Of a stretch of 64,000 nucleotides of DNA, positions 10,016 to 33,234 are shown in pieces. Below the pieces are notes generated by a model. It did not search any database. It was given only the letters and a program-made list of their open reading frames with translations, and had not been told where the DNA came from. The first letter of the stretch is position 1, and each line of letters begins with the position of its first letter. Source of the DNA: Hydrogenophaga taeniospiralis (GTDB taxonomy: Bacteria > Pseudomonadota > Gammaproteobacteria > Burkholderiales > Burkholderiaceae_C). The position numbers and the translations under genes were made by a program. The DNA lies in NCBI RefSeq assembly GCF_020510445.1, contig NZ_JAHBAG010000001.1, positions 3,076,501 through 3,140,500 of the forward strand. Direction: 5' to 3'.

Positions 10016-11110
10016 TGCCCACTCCTTGATCGCTTCCTCCCAGAGCCAGGCGAGCAGCGGGGCGTTGCCCACGCCCGTGCTGGCGGCCGAGCGTGTGTAG
10101 GCTGCCTGCCTCTCGGGGCCTTCCATCTTCTGGTGCAGGCTGAAGTCCAGCGCCTCGCCGTTCGCGCCTTCGAACAGGCGGCCGTCAAAGCCTCGCTCGT
10201 GCACCCGCGTGCCGGTGGCGCGGGCCACCAGGAACTCGGCCAGCGCCGTGCCGAGCAGGCGGCCAGCCGCGCTGTCTACCGGGAAGTGCACGCCGGCCAC
10301 GGTGCGGTTCACGGCAATGCGTGCGGCCAGGCGCTGCAGCTGTTCGTGGCTGGCCGTGCCGTTGGGCGTGGCGACACCTTCGGGCGAGGCGGCGTTGAGC
10401 AGCGCTTCCAGCAATACCGCCGAGGCGAATGCTTCGGTGGCGTGGCCGCTGGGCCAGCTGCCGTGTCCCGGCGTCTGGATCATGGGCTGGATCTGCGGTG
10501 AAAACGCCTCGGGCCGCAGGCTGGCGAAGATGTGCTTGAAGCGCATCTCGACATGCACGCAGAGCGCAAAAACCAAGTCCAGCAACTGCAGGGTTTTCTT
10601 GTGGCGGTGCGCCGTCAGCCCGACCATGGACGACCAGAACGCCAGCGGCGGCGTCAGCTGCGCCACCACCTCGGCCGCGCGATCGGCGCGCAGATCGGCG
10701 TAGGCGGCCACCAGATCCAGCTGCTTCTTGAACTGCGCCTTGGTGGGCGCGCGCAGGCGCACCAGCGGTTTGCGCTGGATGTTGCTGGACTGCAGGTTGG
10801 CGAATTCGAGCGCCGCTTCTTTGGGGCCGTTGCGGGTCTTGAACAGCAGACCTTCGACGAGCTCGGTGAAACAGGCCTCGACACGCGGCCCGTCGGCCCA
10901 GAGTTTGAGGTTCGACGGCTCGTCGAAGCCGGGTTCGGTGACGTGCAAGGACGCGCCTGTGAACGGGCCGACGATGGCTGCTCGGCTGAGGATGAGGGCG
11001 TCGGCATAGACCACCGAGTTGCTTGCTCCCCCACTGGCTCCTCCACTTGCTCCTCCACTTGCGCCCCCACTTGCGCCCCCACTCGCTCCTCCGCTTGCTC
11101 CTCCACTCAT
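10013..11110 (-). CDS. PAP2 / vanadium haloperoxidase-like soluble protein
   Basis: The 365-residue protein contains the three PAP2-superfamily motifs in order: KX6RP (Lys192 to Arg199-Pro200), PSGHA (220-224), and NRTVAGVHFPVD (268-279), a variant of SRX5HX3D with Asn for Ser. These residues form the phosphate or vanadate site of acid phosphatases and haloperoxidases. No membrane segment is visible, which fits the soluble haloperoxidase-like branch rather than lipid phosphatases. The N-terminus is seven SGGA repeats followed by the folded domain. The start has a clean GAGGAG ribosome-binding site. It sits 28 bases behind the cyclase gene and is joined to the protease gene by a repeat. Confidence 0.82.
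   Translation of the reverse strand: MSGGASGGASGGASGGASGGASGGASGGASNSVVYADALILSRAAIVGPFTGASLHVTEPGFDEPSNLKLWADGPRVEACFTELVEGLLFKTRNGPKEAALEFANLQSSNIQRKPLVRLRAPTKAQFKKQLDLVAAYADLRADRAAEVVAQLTPPLAFWSSMVGLTAHRHKKTLQLLDLVFALCVHVEMRFKHIFASLRPEAFSPQIQPMIQTPGHGSWPSGHATEAFASAVLLEALLNAASPEGVATPNGTASHEQLQRLAARIAVNRTVAGVHFPVDSAAGRLLGTALAEFLVARATGTRVHERGFDGRLFEGANGEALDFSLHQKMEGPERQAAYTRSAASTGVGNAPLLAWLWEEAIKEWA
11024..11107 (-). repeat. 12-bp tandem repeat encoding (SGGA)7
   Basis: Seven imperfect copies of a 12-base unit (forms of GCTCCTCCACTT on the plus strand) lie directly after the PAP2 start codon and encode SGGA seven times. Because the unit is a multiple of three, copy-number change would alter linker length without breaking the frame. 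Most third-position variation is C/T or A/G, so the array is old enough to have drifted. Confidence 0.9.
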
Positions 11111-13116: not shown

Positions 13117-13554
13117 TCACTTCAGGTGTTCGTTGATCATCTTGGTCATTTCGAACATGGACGCCTGGGCCTTCTTGAAGATTTCCTTCAGCTTGGCGTC
13201 GGCGTTGATCATGCGGCGATTGACTTCGTCCTGCAGCTTGTTCTTCTTGATGTAGGCCCAGACCTGCTTGGTCACTTCGGTACGGGGCAGCGGGCTGTTG
13301 CCAACGATGGCAGCCAGCGCGGCGCTGGGCGTCATGGCCTTCATGAAGGCAGCGTTGGGGGTGCGCTTCTTGGCCGGTGCGGCCTTCTTGGCGGGAGCGG
13401 CTTTCTTCGCCGGAGCGGCTGCCTTCTTGGCAGGAGCAGCCTTCTTCGCCGGAGCGGCGGCTACCTTCTTGGCCGGTGCGGCTTTCTTCGCCGGTGCTGC
13501 AGCCTTCTTGGCCGGGGCCGCTTTTTTCGCGGGAGCTTTTTTTGCAGTTGCCAT
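13117..13554 (-). CDS. SWIB/MDM2-domain protein with histone H1-like basic tail
   Basis: The 145-residue protein has an N-terminal half built from AAPAKK-type repeats (about residues 3-65), like the C-terminal tail of histone H1, and a C-terminal SWIB/MDM2 domain (about 75-140: SAALAAIVGNSPLPRTEVTK, then VWAYIKKNKLQD). Proteins of this type in Burkholderiales and chlamydiae are thought to bind DNA and act as nucleoid proteins. The start is ATG 13554, after AAGGAAA. It is transcribed alone, with its own terminator. The lysine tail is encoded by near-repetitive DNA and could vary in length between strains. Confidence 0.9.
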   Translation of the reverse strand: MATAKKAPAKKAAPAKKAAAPAKKAAPAKKVAAAPAKKAAPAKKAAAPAKKAAPAKKAAPAKKRTPNAAFMKAMTPSAALAAIVGNSPLPRTEVTKQVWAYIKKNKLQDEVNRRMINADAKLKEIFKKAQASMFEMTKMINEHLK

Positions 13555-23896: not shown

Positions 23897-24562
23897 ATGC
23901 AGATCGAAACCCCACCCACCGAGAAGCGCTACGAGAAGCCCGAGGGCGAGCGCCGAGGCCTCGTGATCGTGCACACCGGCGACGGCAAGGGCAAGAGCAC
24001 GGCCGCCTTTGGCCTGGCCATGCGCGCGCTGGGCCGCACGCACGTGCACGGCAAGCGGGTGAAGATTTTCCAGTTCATGAAAGTGCCCAGCGCGCGCTTC
24101 GGTGAGCACCGGGTCTTCGAGTGGCTGGCGGAGGTCGGGCCGCCGCCGGGCCGCTTCCAAGGCGGGCCCGCCCCCTCGGAGGGCAGCGAGCCGCAAGGCA
24201 GCGCAGCGTGGGGGCCCCTGATCGAGGGGCTGGGCGATGGATTCAGCTGGAAAAGCCAGGACCTCGAACACTCCGCCCAGCTCGCGCGCGACGGCTGGCA
24301 GAAGGCGAAGGCGGCGATCCTCGGCGGTGAACACTTCATGGTCACGCTCGACGAGCTGACCTACCCGCTGATCTACGGCTGGCTGCCGCTGGACGATGTG
24401 CTGCAGACGCTGCGCGAGCGCCCACGCGACGTGCACGTGGTCATCACCGGGCGGCGCTGCCCGCCCGAGATCATCGAGCTGGCCGACACCGTGACCGAGA
24501 TGACCCTGGTGAAACACGCGTTCAAGGCGGGCATTCCCGCGCAACGCGGCATTGAGGACTGA
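23897..24562 (+). CDS. cobO: Cob(I)yrinic acid a,c-diamide adenosyltransferase with repeat-derived insert
   Basis: The 221-residue enzyme (CobO/BtuR type) transfers the 5'-deoxyadenosyl group of ATP to cobalt of corrinoids. The P-loop HTGDGKGKSTAAFGLAMRA and the segments VKIFQFMKVPSARFGEH and GDGFSWKSQDLEHSAQLARD are typical. Between them, residues about 78-106 (AEVGPPPGRFQGG... to ...SAAWG) form a Gly/Pro/Ser-rich insert not expected in the family. It is encoded by GC-rich palindromic DNA related to the inserts in cobQ. The frame stays open, so the protein may still fold with an extra loop before GDGFSWK. Confidence 0.92.
   Translation: MQIETPPTEKRYEKPEGERRGLVIVHTGDGKGKSTAAFGLAMRALGRTHVHGKRVKIFQFMKVPSARFGEHRVFEWLAEVGPPPGRFQGGPAPSEGSEPQGSAAWGPLIEGLGDGFSWKSQDLEHSAQLARDGWQKAKAAILGGEHFMVTLDELTYPLIYGWLPLDDVLQTLRERPRDVHVVITGRRCPPEIIELADTVTEMTLVKHAFKAGIPAQRGIED
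24128..24214 (+). repeat. In-frame palindromic repeat inside cobO
   Basis: The stretch contains GGGCCGCTTCCAAGGCGGGC, CCCCCTCGGAGGGCAGCGAG and CAGCGCAGCGTGGGGGC. These match, with changes, the order of blocks in the two copies inside cobQ (CCCCAAG, CAGCCCCC/GGAGGGCAGCGA, GGAGCGTGGGGGC). Its length is a multiple of three, as read from the intact frame. Exact ends are estimated from where family similarity resumes. Confidence 0.75.
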
Positions 24563-30659: not shown

Positions 30660-31645
30660 CACATCCACACGGCGGCCCCGACGCGATGGGCGTGCCCCGC
30701 TGGGACTTTTCCACCAACGCCAACGCCTGCGGGCCAAGCCCCATGGCGCTGGCCGCGGTGCGGCAGGCCGACGCGGCGCATTACCCCGACCCGCAGCACA
30801 CGGCGTTGCGCGAGGCGCTGGCCGGGTTCCACGGCGTCGCGGTCGAACGCATCGTGATCGCGGCCAGCGCCAGTGAGTTCATCGCCCGCATCAGCGCCAG
30901 TGTGGCCCGCGCGGGCGGGCAGCGCGCCTGGTGGCCTGCGCTCGCTTACGGCGACTACGCGCATGCCGCGCAGGCCTGGGGTCTGCAGCGGGTGAACGAT
31001 CCCGCGCAGGTCGACCTGCTGTGGCTGTGCGAACCGTCGAGCCCGCTGGGCAGCGCCGAAGCCATGGCGAGCGCCGTGGCGCAGCAGGGCGGTGTGATCG
31101 TGATCGACCGCGCCTACGAGCCGCTGCGCCTGTCCGGCCGCAGCAGCCTGGGTGCCGAGGCGCTGGACCGCCTCTGGCAGCTCTGGACGCCCAACAAGGC
31201 GCTCGGCCTCACGGGGGTGCGCGGCGCCTACGCCATCGCGCCGGTGCAGAGCCAGGAGCTGGCGCGCGCGCTGGAGCGGCTGGCGCCGTCCTGGCCGCTG
31301 GGCGCGCATGGCGTGGCGATGCTGCGGGCGTGGGTGCGGGCCGATACACAACAATGGCTGACCGAGAGCCTGGTGAGCCTGCGTGACTGGAAAGCGCAGC
31401 AGATGGCCCTGTTGGCCGGGCTGGGCTGGACCTGCCTGCCCAGCGAGGCCAACTACTTCTGCGCCCGCGCACCCGTAGCCCTGGATACACCGGCCCTGCG
31501 TGCCCAGGGCATCAAGTTGCGCGACACGACCTCGCTCGGCCTGCCCGACCACTGGCGCCTGGGTGTGCGGTCGCCCGCCGCGCAGGCGGCCCTGCGCGAT
31601 GCCTTGCAGCGCGCCACGCTGCGCTGCGTGGAGGTGTCCGCATGA
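30656..31645 (+). CDS. cobD: L-threonine-O-3-phosphate decarboxylase
   Basis: The 329-residue aminotransferase-fold PLP protein is the CobD (Salmonella naming) / CobC (Pseudomonas naming) type that makes aminopropanol phosphate for the corrinoid arm. It starts with the family pattern DFSTNANACGPSP, has the Asp/Tyr pair in IVIDRAYEPL, and the PLP lysine in WTPNKALGLTGVRGAY (about residue 182). It is about 30 residues shorter than enteric CobD. It overlaps both neighbours by four bases, between cbiB and cobQ, which act just before and after it. Confidence 0.88.
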   Translation: MTHPHGGPDAMGVPRWDFSTNANACGPSPMALAAVRQADAAHYPDPQHTALREALAGFHGVAVERIVIAASASEFIARISASVARAGGQRAWWPALAYGDYAHAAQAWGLQRVNDPAQVDLLWLCEPSSPLGSAEAMASAVAQQGGVIVIDRAYEPLRLSGRSSLGAEALDRLWQLWTPNKALGLTGVRGAYAIAPVQSQELARALERLAPSWPLGAHGVAMLRAWVRADTQQWLTESLVSLRDWKAQQMALLAGLGWTCLPSEANYFCARAPVALDTPALRAQGIKLRDTTSLGLPDHWRLGVRSPAAQAALRDALQRATLRCVEVSA

Positions 31646-33234
31646 CCGCCGTCTGCGTGATGGTGCTCGGCACCACCAGCGGCGCGGGCAAGAGCTGGCT
31701 GACCACGGCGCTGTGCCGCCACTACGCGCGCCAGGGGCTGAAAGTTGTCCCGTTCAAGGCGCAGAACATGAGCAACAACGCTCGGGTGGTGCTGGGGCCC
31801 CAAGCTGAAACAGCCCCCACGGAGGGCAGCGATCCGCGTGGGCGGTGGAGCGTGGGGGCGGAAGCGTTCACCGCCGGGCCGCCCCAAGGTGAAACAGCCC
31901 CCTCGGGGGGCAGCGACCCGCGTGAGCGGTGGAGCGTGGGGGCCGAAATCGGTTCTGCGCAGTACTTCCAGTCGCTCGCTGCCAACGCCGAGCCCGACGT
32001 GCGCATGAACCCGCTGCTGCTCAAGCCCGAGGCCGATACGCACAGCCAGGTGGTGCTGATGGGGCAGGTGAGCCAGGCGCTGTCGGAGATGCCGTGGCGC
32101 GGTCGCAGTCTGCACGTCTGGCCCCAGATCGCCGCCGCGCTGGATGCGCTGCGTGCCGAGAACGACGTGGTGGTGATTGAGGGTGCGGGCTCGCCGGCCG
32201 AGATCAACCTGCACGGCAGCGACATCGTCAACATGCGGGTGGCGCTGCACGCGCAGGCGCGCTGCCTGCTGGTGACCGACATCGACCGCGGTGGGGCCTT
32301 CGCCCACCTTTACGGCACCTGGGCGCTGCTGCCGGCCGACGAGCAGGCGCTGATCCGCGGCTTTGTGCTCAACAAGTTCCGTGGCGACGCCGCGCTGCTC
32401 GCGCCCGCGCCGCGGATGCTGCAGGACCTGACCGGCGTGCCGGTGGTTGCCACGCTGCCGATGTGGTGGCAACACGGCCTGCCCGAAGAGGACGGCGTTT
32501 TCGATGACCGCACCCTCGCTTGCGGCGCGGTGCGGAAAACGATTGCCGTGATCGCCTGGCCGCGCATCAGCAACCTCGACGAGTTCCAGCCGCTGAAGAA
32601 CGTGCCCGGCCTGCGCCTGGTCTGGGCGCGCACGCCGGCCGATTGTGTGGGCGCCGACTGGATCGTGCTGCCGGGCTCCAAGTCCACGGCGGCCGATCTG
32701 GCCTGGCTGCGCGCGCAGGGGCTGGACCGCGCCGTGGCCGCGCACGCCGCGCAGGGCGGGGCGGTGCTGGGCGTGTGCGGTGGGCTGCAGGTGTTGGGCG
32801 AGGCGCTGATCGACCCGCATGGCATCGACGGCAACGCGCCCGGCCTGGGCCTGCTGCCGCTGGTGACGCGCTTTGACCTGCAAAAAACCGTGCGCCACAC
32901 CGAGTCCCGGTTTGGCGCGCTCACCGGCCCCTGGGCCCCGCTCTCGGGCGTGACCGCGGCGGGCTACGAAATCCACCACGGGCAGACCACCCAACACCCG
33001 GCCATGGCCGCCAAGGGCGACGTGGCGCGCGAGGTGTTGCCCGGCCTGGGCTGGCAGAACGCCGCTGGCAACGTGCTCGGCGTGTACCTGCACGGCCTGT
33101 TCGAAGACCCGCGCGTGCTGCACGCGCTGTTTGGGGCCACCGCGCCCACGCTGGAGACCGTGTTCGACGGCCTGGCCGATTTCATGGAATCCCATTTCGA
33201 GCCCGGCGTGCTCGACCAACTCATCCAACCCTGA
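31642..33234 (+). CDS. cobQ: Cobyric acid synthase with duplicated repeat-derived insert
   Basis: The 530-residue enzyme amidates four carboxylates of adenosylcobyrinate diamide. The P-loop GTTSGAGKSWLTTALCR, FKAQNMSNNARV, GSDIVNMRVALHA and VTDIDRGGAFAHLYGTW are canonical. The C-terminal glutaminase has the Cys in GVCGGLQVLG and the His in GYEIHHGQT. Residues about 51-101, between NNARVV and EIGSAQYFQ, are a foreign-looking insert made of two related units (PQAETAPTEGSDPR..RWSVGAE and PQGETAPSGGSDPR..RWSVGAE). They lie in a loop between two conserved blocks near the active site. Confidence 0.93.
   Translation: MTAVCVMVLGTTSGAGKSWLTTALCRHYARQGLKVVPFKAQNMSNNARVVLGPQAETAPTEGSDPRGRWSVGAEAFTAGPPQGETAPSGGSDPRERWSVGAEIGSAQYFQSLAANAEPDVRMNPLLLKPEADTHSQVVLMGQVSQALSEMPWRGRSLHVWPQIAAALDALRAENDVVVIEGAGSPAEINLHGSDIVNMRVALHAQARCLLVTDIDRGGAFAHLYGTWALLPADEQALIRGFVLNKFRGDAALLAPAPRMLQDLTGVPVVATLPMWWQHGLPEEDGVFDDRTLACGAVRKTIAVIAWPRISNLDEFQPLKNVPGLRLVWARTPADCVGADWIVLPGSKSTAADLAWLRAQGLDRAVAAHAAQGGAVLGVCGGLQVLGEALIDPHGIDGNAPGLGLLPLVTRFDLQKTVRHTESRFGALTGPWAPLSGVTAAGYEIHHGQTTQHPAMAAKGDVAREVLPGLGWQNAAGNVLGVYLHGLFEDPRVLHALFGATAPTLETVFDGLADFMESHFEPGVLDQLIQP
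31794..31944 (+). repeat. Two tandem in-frame palindromic repeats inside cobQ
   Basis: Unit 1 (about 31794-31861) and unit 2 (about 31876-31944) share GCCCCAAG, TGAAACAGCCCCC, GGGCAGCGAYCCGCGTG and GCGGTGGAGCGTGGGGGC, with their CAGCG blocks 84 bases apart, exactly 28 codons. Both are strongly palindromic (AGCCCCC...GGGGGC) and are read in the same frame. The related copy in cobO (24128-24214) has the same block order. Confidence 0.85.

Follow-up and report, generated by a model that had tools for sequence, protein, structure and literature searches.

A dispersed palindromic repeat in frame inside cobQ and other genes of Hydrogenophaga, akin by description to the Rickettsia palindromic elements

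Short palindromes that lie in frame inside unrelated genes, encode a peptide tolerated by the host protein and also occur outside genes are best known from Rickettsia, as the Rickettsia palindromic elements (RPEs; Ogata et al. 2000, via PMC10969869). In the excerpted text of that 2024 review, RPEs are treated as an unusually frequent case, and a similar mechanism in other prokaryotes is regarded as merely conceivable. The MITEs, such as ERIC, Correia and BOX, are likewise non-autonomous, are scattered through genomes and may lie within genes (PMC10969869, same excerpt), and the REP, BIME and REPIN elements associated with RAYT are palindromic, occur in many copies and lie next to gene ends (PMC2817692 and PMC3733652, as excerpted). 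Palindromes inside protein genes are also described from the mitochondria of Nematomorpha, that is, in animal mitochondria, and the excerpt of that article does not mention a dispersed element family (PMC6649704).

The repeat described here was found in Hydrogenophaga taeniospiralis, in a window of 64,000 nucleotides (the whole stretch of DNA that was analysed), and combines features of several of these systems. It shares with the RPEs, as characterized in the excerpt of PMC10969869, dispersal and frequent in-frame residence; the RPE trait of one conserved peptide has a counterpart only in the shared frame of its reverse intragenic copies. It differs from them in its free-living betaproteobacterial hosts, GC-richness, 84-bp tandem steps, use of several frames and both orientations, and a covarying, hypervariable stem. 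Unlike the REP-type elements, it has a longer unit, many intragenic copies and no copy beside the Y1_Tnp gene in six genomes, and unlike the MITEs, it shows no signal of target-site duplication and has arms that vary yet stay paired. The small dispersed repeats of Nostoc-type cyanobacteria, reportedly treated by Elhai et al. in 2008, are said to be very small and mobile and to carry paired stem changes; their sequence and hosts are different, and the likeness is by description only. The comparison with RPEs, already drawn by a sequence-only reading of the window, is supported as an analogy by description, without a claim of common origin. In the open-licence literature, judged by titles and the beginnings of abstracts, we recognised no report of such elements in Comamonadaceae.

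The cobQ insert and the anatomy of the element

The cobQ gene for cobyric acid synthase (31642..33234, forward strand) encodes 530 aa in a frame that is open through the insert, and its product scores above both NCBIfam CobQ cut-offs, with the best-matching stretch beginning at residue 100, directly after the insert. The inserted coding stretch, residues 51-101 (31792..31944, forward strand), lies between the NNARVV block and EIGSAQ, replaces the loop of 3-10 residues found in most homologues and consists, over its 51 residues, of two repeats. These copies (31797-31863 and 31881-31947) are 67 nt each and 91% identical. Two sites in the window match the 21-mer CCCCAAGGTGAAACAGCCCCC with at most 3 mismatches, compared with 0.01 expected from shuffles, so that chance is ruled out for the recurrence of this core.

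The sequence-only reading had reported two related palindromic repeats, of about 68 bases and 84 bases apart, in frame inside cobQ between blocks that are normally adjacent. The two related repeats, their frame and the start-to-start spacing of exactly 84 are confirmed, but the unit is longer, with a 79-position model. The blocks are normally adjacent except for a short natural loop: between NARV and GEIGSAQ or EIGSAQ, 79 of the 103 CobQ rows have 3-10 residues vs 52 here. The units are indeed palindromic, although unit 1 is without a good 5' arm and its inner hairpin is imperfect.

With a covariance model, unit 1, in which the 5' arm is degenerate, extends over 31786..31860 (forward; 51.6 bits, E 1.8e-8) and the full-length unit 2 over 31866..31944 (forward; 88.9 bits, E 9.6e-16). 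The variable outer stem of unit 2, as read from the sequence and backed by covariation, consists of the 5' arm GTTCACC (31866..31872) and the 3' arm GGTGAAAC (31888..31895), with 31867-31872 pairing with 31888-31893. It is followed by the inner hairpin GCCCCC-TCG-GGGGGC (31897..31911), which is helix 2 of the covariation test, paired in 98% of cells; all these features are on the forward strand.

Both copies noted in cobQ are real, but a third copy in the window, near cobQ, had been missed. It is a decayed element (GPPPGRFQGGPAPSEGSEPQGSAAWGP; 24137..24216, forward; 59.2 bits, E 6.1e-10 with the covariance model) in frame in cobO, a btuR-type corrinoid adenosyltransferase ORF of 221 aa (23897..24562, forward). 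The window also contains a degenerate 18/39-bp tandem repeat at 13366-13536 (consensus GCCTTCTTGGCCGGAGCGGC...), perhaps Lys/Ala-rich coding sequence on the opposite strand, and a 12-bp repeat at 11022-11107.

The order of parts in a unit is a 5' arm of about 8 nt, the GCCGGGCCGCCCCAA loop, a complementary 3' arm, the CAGCCCCC-TC-GGGGGGC hairpin and the GCGACCCGCGCAGCGGCGGAGCGTGGGGGC tail. Tandem arrays advance in steps of 81-89 bp, most commonly 84, and in longer variants, of about 99-109 bp, the inner hairpin is swollen. Across 49 aligned units, the two named helices are paired in 91.8% of cells, and cells with changes on both sides number 82, a count that none of 500 shuffles reaches (24.3 +- 5.9), and fall to 12-18 when the helix partners are slid, in a test for which the stem was picked from the same 49 sequences. 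In the outer stem, 7 of the 8 pairs have changed on both sides, a number that 20 of the 500 shuffles also reach; the inner hairpin is nearly invariant and hence yields little information on pairing. Counting arms over 68 rows, among which some neighbouring truncated matches are counted twice, gives a mean stem score of 6.49 vs 3.36 +- 0.18 for re-dealt partners. The CobQ insert of locus L064 provides an individual instance, a paired double change relative to the otherwise like inserts of L062, L063, L065 and L069. RNA folding of single units is no better than that of shuffles (z -0.46 to -1.17), and the case for the putative structure stands on covariation, by which the outer stem is hypervariable yet self-complementary. 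A search of nine loci against Rfam revealed no family for the element; the lone match (E 0.39; 26.5 bits against a gathering threshold of 99) falls in L131, a carrier of another repeat family.

Dispersal and residence inside genes

The sequence-only reading had suggested a search for other genomic copies, and there are many. BLAST with the cobQ insert, with 40 of 125 candidates scored, yields 49 matches across the window's genome, the core pattern occurs at 59 sites compared with 1 for the reversed control, and the covariance model built from 49 units gives 89 matches at E up to 0.01, with 150 of 11,277 candidates scored and E-values that are rough. Beyond this genome, the 17-base core, with one mismatch allowed, is present in 34 of 35 congeners, where copy numbers run from 1 to 89. 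Of 24 genomes from other families, 1 has it, with 2 copies, and the reversed control gives single matches in 5 of the 60 genomes. A stricter pattern, whose control matches none, is found in 44 of 200 sampled genomes of the family, representing 38 of 141 genera. The element is a dispersed repeat that has multiplied in this Hydrogenophaga-like genome and in its family. In the excerpted part of a survey of motif pairs, Rhodoferax ferrireducens T118 ranks first in the number of significant pairs, with 140 (PMC5217627); that palindromes like the Hydrogenophaga element cause these pairs is a guess on our part.

Among 51 arrays of the window's genome, 17 are intragenic, with the same coding frame on both sides and a frame open through the element, according to a codon model on which all gene contexts rest and which was trained on 33 window ORFs, a few of them apparently in wrong frames. 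Two of the 51 arrays, 3157271 and 4585897, both intergenic, are absent from the 89 covariance-model matches. As to frames, which the earlier reading had proposed to examine, the 11 forward intragenic copies use all three frames, and the 6 reverse copies use a single one, encoding an SLPP or SLPQ peptide. By Pfam or, where Pfam is silent or partial, by the encoded peptides, we take the host genes to be uvrA, glnE, rsmG, murD, cobQ, moeA and those for a formate-dehydrogenase-like molybdoprotein, a PhzF-like protein, cyclopropane fatty acid synthase, an M20 peptidase, an EamA transporter, an aminopeptidase-like protein (no Pfam match), nitronate monooxygenase, an FMN oxidoreductase fusion, an acyl-CoA synthetase, a DAO-type oxidoreductase and a UvrD-like helicase. 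In bacteria, murD is generally essential.

Of 21 further covariance-model sites (site 4670680 left out), 9 are intragenic, most of these sites being weaker-scoring and those with E above 1e-5 possibly including chance matches; the hosts, by Pfam, are meaB, a YdjM-like protein, a cytochrome d1 domain, a class II aldolase, a sulfatase, a DUF1653 protein, glutamine synthetase, an aminotransferase and cobO, with the window's third copy. Pfam domains span the insert in the phzF, moeA, acyl-CoA synthetase, DAO, meaB, sulfatase, aminotransferase and cobO hosts. For 29 of the 34 extragenic arrays, a gene end lies no more than about 20 bases away. In congener G007, 1 of 9 arrays is intragenic, in a sample that was drawn from the first 30 exact matches of 89 sites and favours long intergenic arrays.

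At 16 sites other than CobQ, 42-residue flanks were joined and searched in five congeners. At 15 of these sites, counting the cyclopropane synthase site by the joined-flank search alone, at least one of the 5 congeners is without the element, the exception being the nitronate monooxygenase site; at the FMN fusion site, G025 has an unrelated 9-residue linker instead. At 8 of the 16, an element occupies the identical point in some congener: G025 shares it at uvrA, G001 at moeA, and G035 at glnE, cfa, eamA, nmo, the FMN fusion and the acyl-CoA synthetase. The net gain relative to an element-free congener site is 84 bp at 4 of 14 sites (eamA, murD vs G035, moeA and DAO). At the other 10 it ranges from 54 to 153 bp (array length plus overlap, the overlap figures being net length gain alone and no measure of duplication), and where the flank alignment ran across further indels, some of these gains are not divisible by three. 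Judged by these comparisons, the intragenic elements are most probably insertions.

Two of these sites have features of their own. In the nitronate monooxygenase gene (C1:1063947-1064026; L026, L233, L237), the element joins a downstream small monooxygenase ORF in one open frame of 512 residues; the two parts are in frame via the element in the window's genome and in G035, and lie in different frames in G025, which has no element there. Apparently, the genes were fused through the element. At the formate-dehydrogenase site, G035 and G033 (L250, L234) contain a different repeat, with the peptides RPEPVEG or RAEPVEA plus RQAQ, which suggests loops common to several repeat families.

The CobQ loop and its tolerance of inserts

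We examined 110 CobQ loci (L061-L170), of which 103, the window's own row included, gave both motifs; no motif was obtained from L085, L088 and L096, and the second motif was missed in L110, L167, L168 and L169, which have short loops. The 80 named loci are the best 80 of at least 592, so that the sample leans towards the window, and at least 3 pairs of rows are the same organism twice. Over the part of CobQ on which the tree was built, three congeners have rows identical to those of named records (G012 to L095, Hydrogenophaga sp.; G017 to L092, Hydrogenophaga sp.; G028 to L136, Hydrogenophaga intermedia S1), which makes a Hydrogenophaga-like source likely for the window. Sorted by peptide motif, 22 of the 103 rows have an insert (15 the reverse element, 5, including the window, the forward element and 2 a different repeat family), 2 have an unclassified longer loop and 79 have none. 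The inserts occur in both orientations and in 1-4 copies, with four tandem units, every one in frame, in G004. On the CobQ tree, parsimony yields about 19 changes for insert presence, a soft figure given that 53 of 97 inner branches are open and the starred branches force just 6. The inserts are unclustered (205 of 500 shuffles are as low, for presence vs absence on weak branches). The loop is an insertion hot spot. A second loop, after GVFD, contains SLPP or ALPP inserts in 14 of 101 parsed loci from several genera.

Nine of the reverse inserts (L062-L065, L068, L069, L087, L097 and L103; from Hydrogenophaga, Polaromonas and another Burkholderiales MAG) have an arm near TTTTCC/GGAAAA, with a paired change in L064, and differ in the middle, as if the middle had been converted to a local consensus. 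A second palindromic family (CCCTCCCCCGCTGGGGGAGGG...), with 19 genome matches, is represented by an in-frame insert in UvrA (C1:91401-91490, L188), and similar-looking peptides are found at the CobQ hot spot of the homologues L131 and L145.

The sequence-only reading had proposed mapping the insert on a CobQ model, and there it forms a low-pLDDT loop between two strands. In the AlphaFold model (30 sequences), mean pLDDT is 83.5, with most of the enzyme above 80, and residues 54-98, between strands 47-50 and 101-104, are below 50; the sole other stretch below 50, residues 283-287, adjoins the second hot spot. The insert is thus predicted to be disordered. Foldseek with the model returned CTP synthases and GatD, uninformative on the insert, and a sequence search of solved structures returned one distant chain. 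Pro and Gly together account for 41% of residues in 17 inserts vs 15% in the flanks. Among 57 full-length copies, the numbers without a stop are 53, 57 and 56 for the three forward frames and 52, 40 and 54 for the reverse ones, compared with about 46-48 for base shuffles.

These features suggest how insertions might be tolerated. Many would add a multiple of three bases, as with the gains of 84 at 4 of the 14 compared sites, most frames of the GC-rich element would contain no stop, and its Pro/Gly-rich peptide would stay flexible. With the frame kept, few stops and a flexible peptide, insertion into a surface loop may be nearly harmless and therefore survive selection. We infer that the usual outcome of an insertion is a preserved frame and an additional flexible loop.

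How the element may spread

The cobQ insert very probably represents a tandem pair of units of a palindromic, non-autonomous repeat, about 79 bp long, that is RPE-like and resides in and behind genes. As to its spread, the copying machinery might recognise folded single-stranded DNA, rather than a fixed terminal sequence, which could account for the covariation of the arms. Paired stem changes indicate one of two processes, recognition of the folded single strand or correction by template switching. The latter belongs to an explanation that dispenses with an active mover, whereby old repeats spread by recombination or gene conversion and template switching at quasi-palindromes keeps the arms complementary. 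Template switching is described to homogenise the arms of inverted repeats (PMC8604942, as excerpted), quasi-palindrome correction could produce covariation, the double change in the L064 insert is of this kind, and the tandem arrays with their 81-89 bp steps fit as well. However, single copies in unrelated genes with clean sites in congeners, and CobQ inserts that do not cluster on the tree, are not readily explained in this way, and we regard spread without a mover as doubtful.

Mobilization by known types of transposase was also considered. A MITE of a classical DDE transposon would have the right size and dispersal, and the ends of the element are partly complementary (GCCCCAAG ... GTGGGGGC); such a MITE should, however, have fixed inverted termini, not hypervariable paired arms, and create target duplications, and 28 elements gave no sign of target-site duplication (best z 2.5 across 324 settings), a signal that old copies could have lost. 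An origin of this kind is unlikely. A REP element moved in trans by a RAYT-type Y1 transposase, with palindromes beside genes and some landing in genes, would account for the palindromic form, the high copy number and the gene ends next to most extragenic arrays, and at least 1 PF01797 gene is present in the window's genome and in 30 of 35 congeners. Against it, RAYT genes are described as always REP-flanked (PMC2817692, as excerpted), whereas the 5-6 kb neighbourhoods of Y1_Tnp genes in six genomes contain no element (best element score E 0.51). Furthermore, a PF01797 gene occurs without the element in G034, and elements occur without any PF01797 match in five congeners, among them G002 at 99% completeness. 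The unit also exceeds the 20-40 bp stated for REPs in the excerpt of PMC3733652. The resident Y1 transposase is not supported as the mover, and the REP scenario as a whole seems quite improbable. That the insert is an ancient functional loop of the CobQ protein, unrelated to mobile DNA, was considered and rejected. The same loop position is used in several genera, and Hydrogenophaga, Polaromonas and another Burkholderiales MAG have similar reverse inserts with shared arms, but the 79 insert-free rows, the carriers that differ in orientation, copy number and family, and the presence of the same DNA in other genes and between genes leave this explanation scarcely credible and, for the window's copy, refuted.

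Returning to the RPE-like repeat, we read it as a protein-invading palindrome, an instance in free-living bacteria of a phenomenon best known from Rickettsia. A wider proposal, which we put forward only tentatively, is that Comamonadaceae possess active protein-invading palindromes that would be recognised by their fold rather than their sequence, carry a self-complementary arm of their own in each copy, land in solvent loops of essential enzymes, extend proteins there in 28-codon steps and fuse adjacent genes through a linker encoded by the element, as apparently at the nitronate monooxygenase. The hosts include two vitamin B12 genes, cobQ and cobO, and the element would provide enzymes with additional loops. 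Because its hosts include genes like murD, and one and the same gene exists in nature in many versions with and without an insert, two questions come within reach of experiment: whether the inserts are retained in the mature protein, and by what route a palindrome that has no gene of its own multiplies. If the wider proposal is true, protein-invading palindromes would be a standing source of new protein segments.
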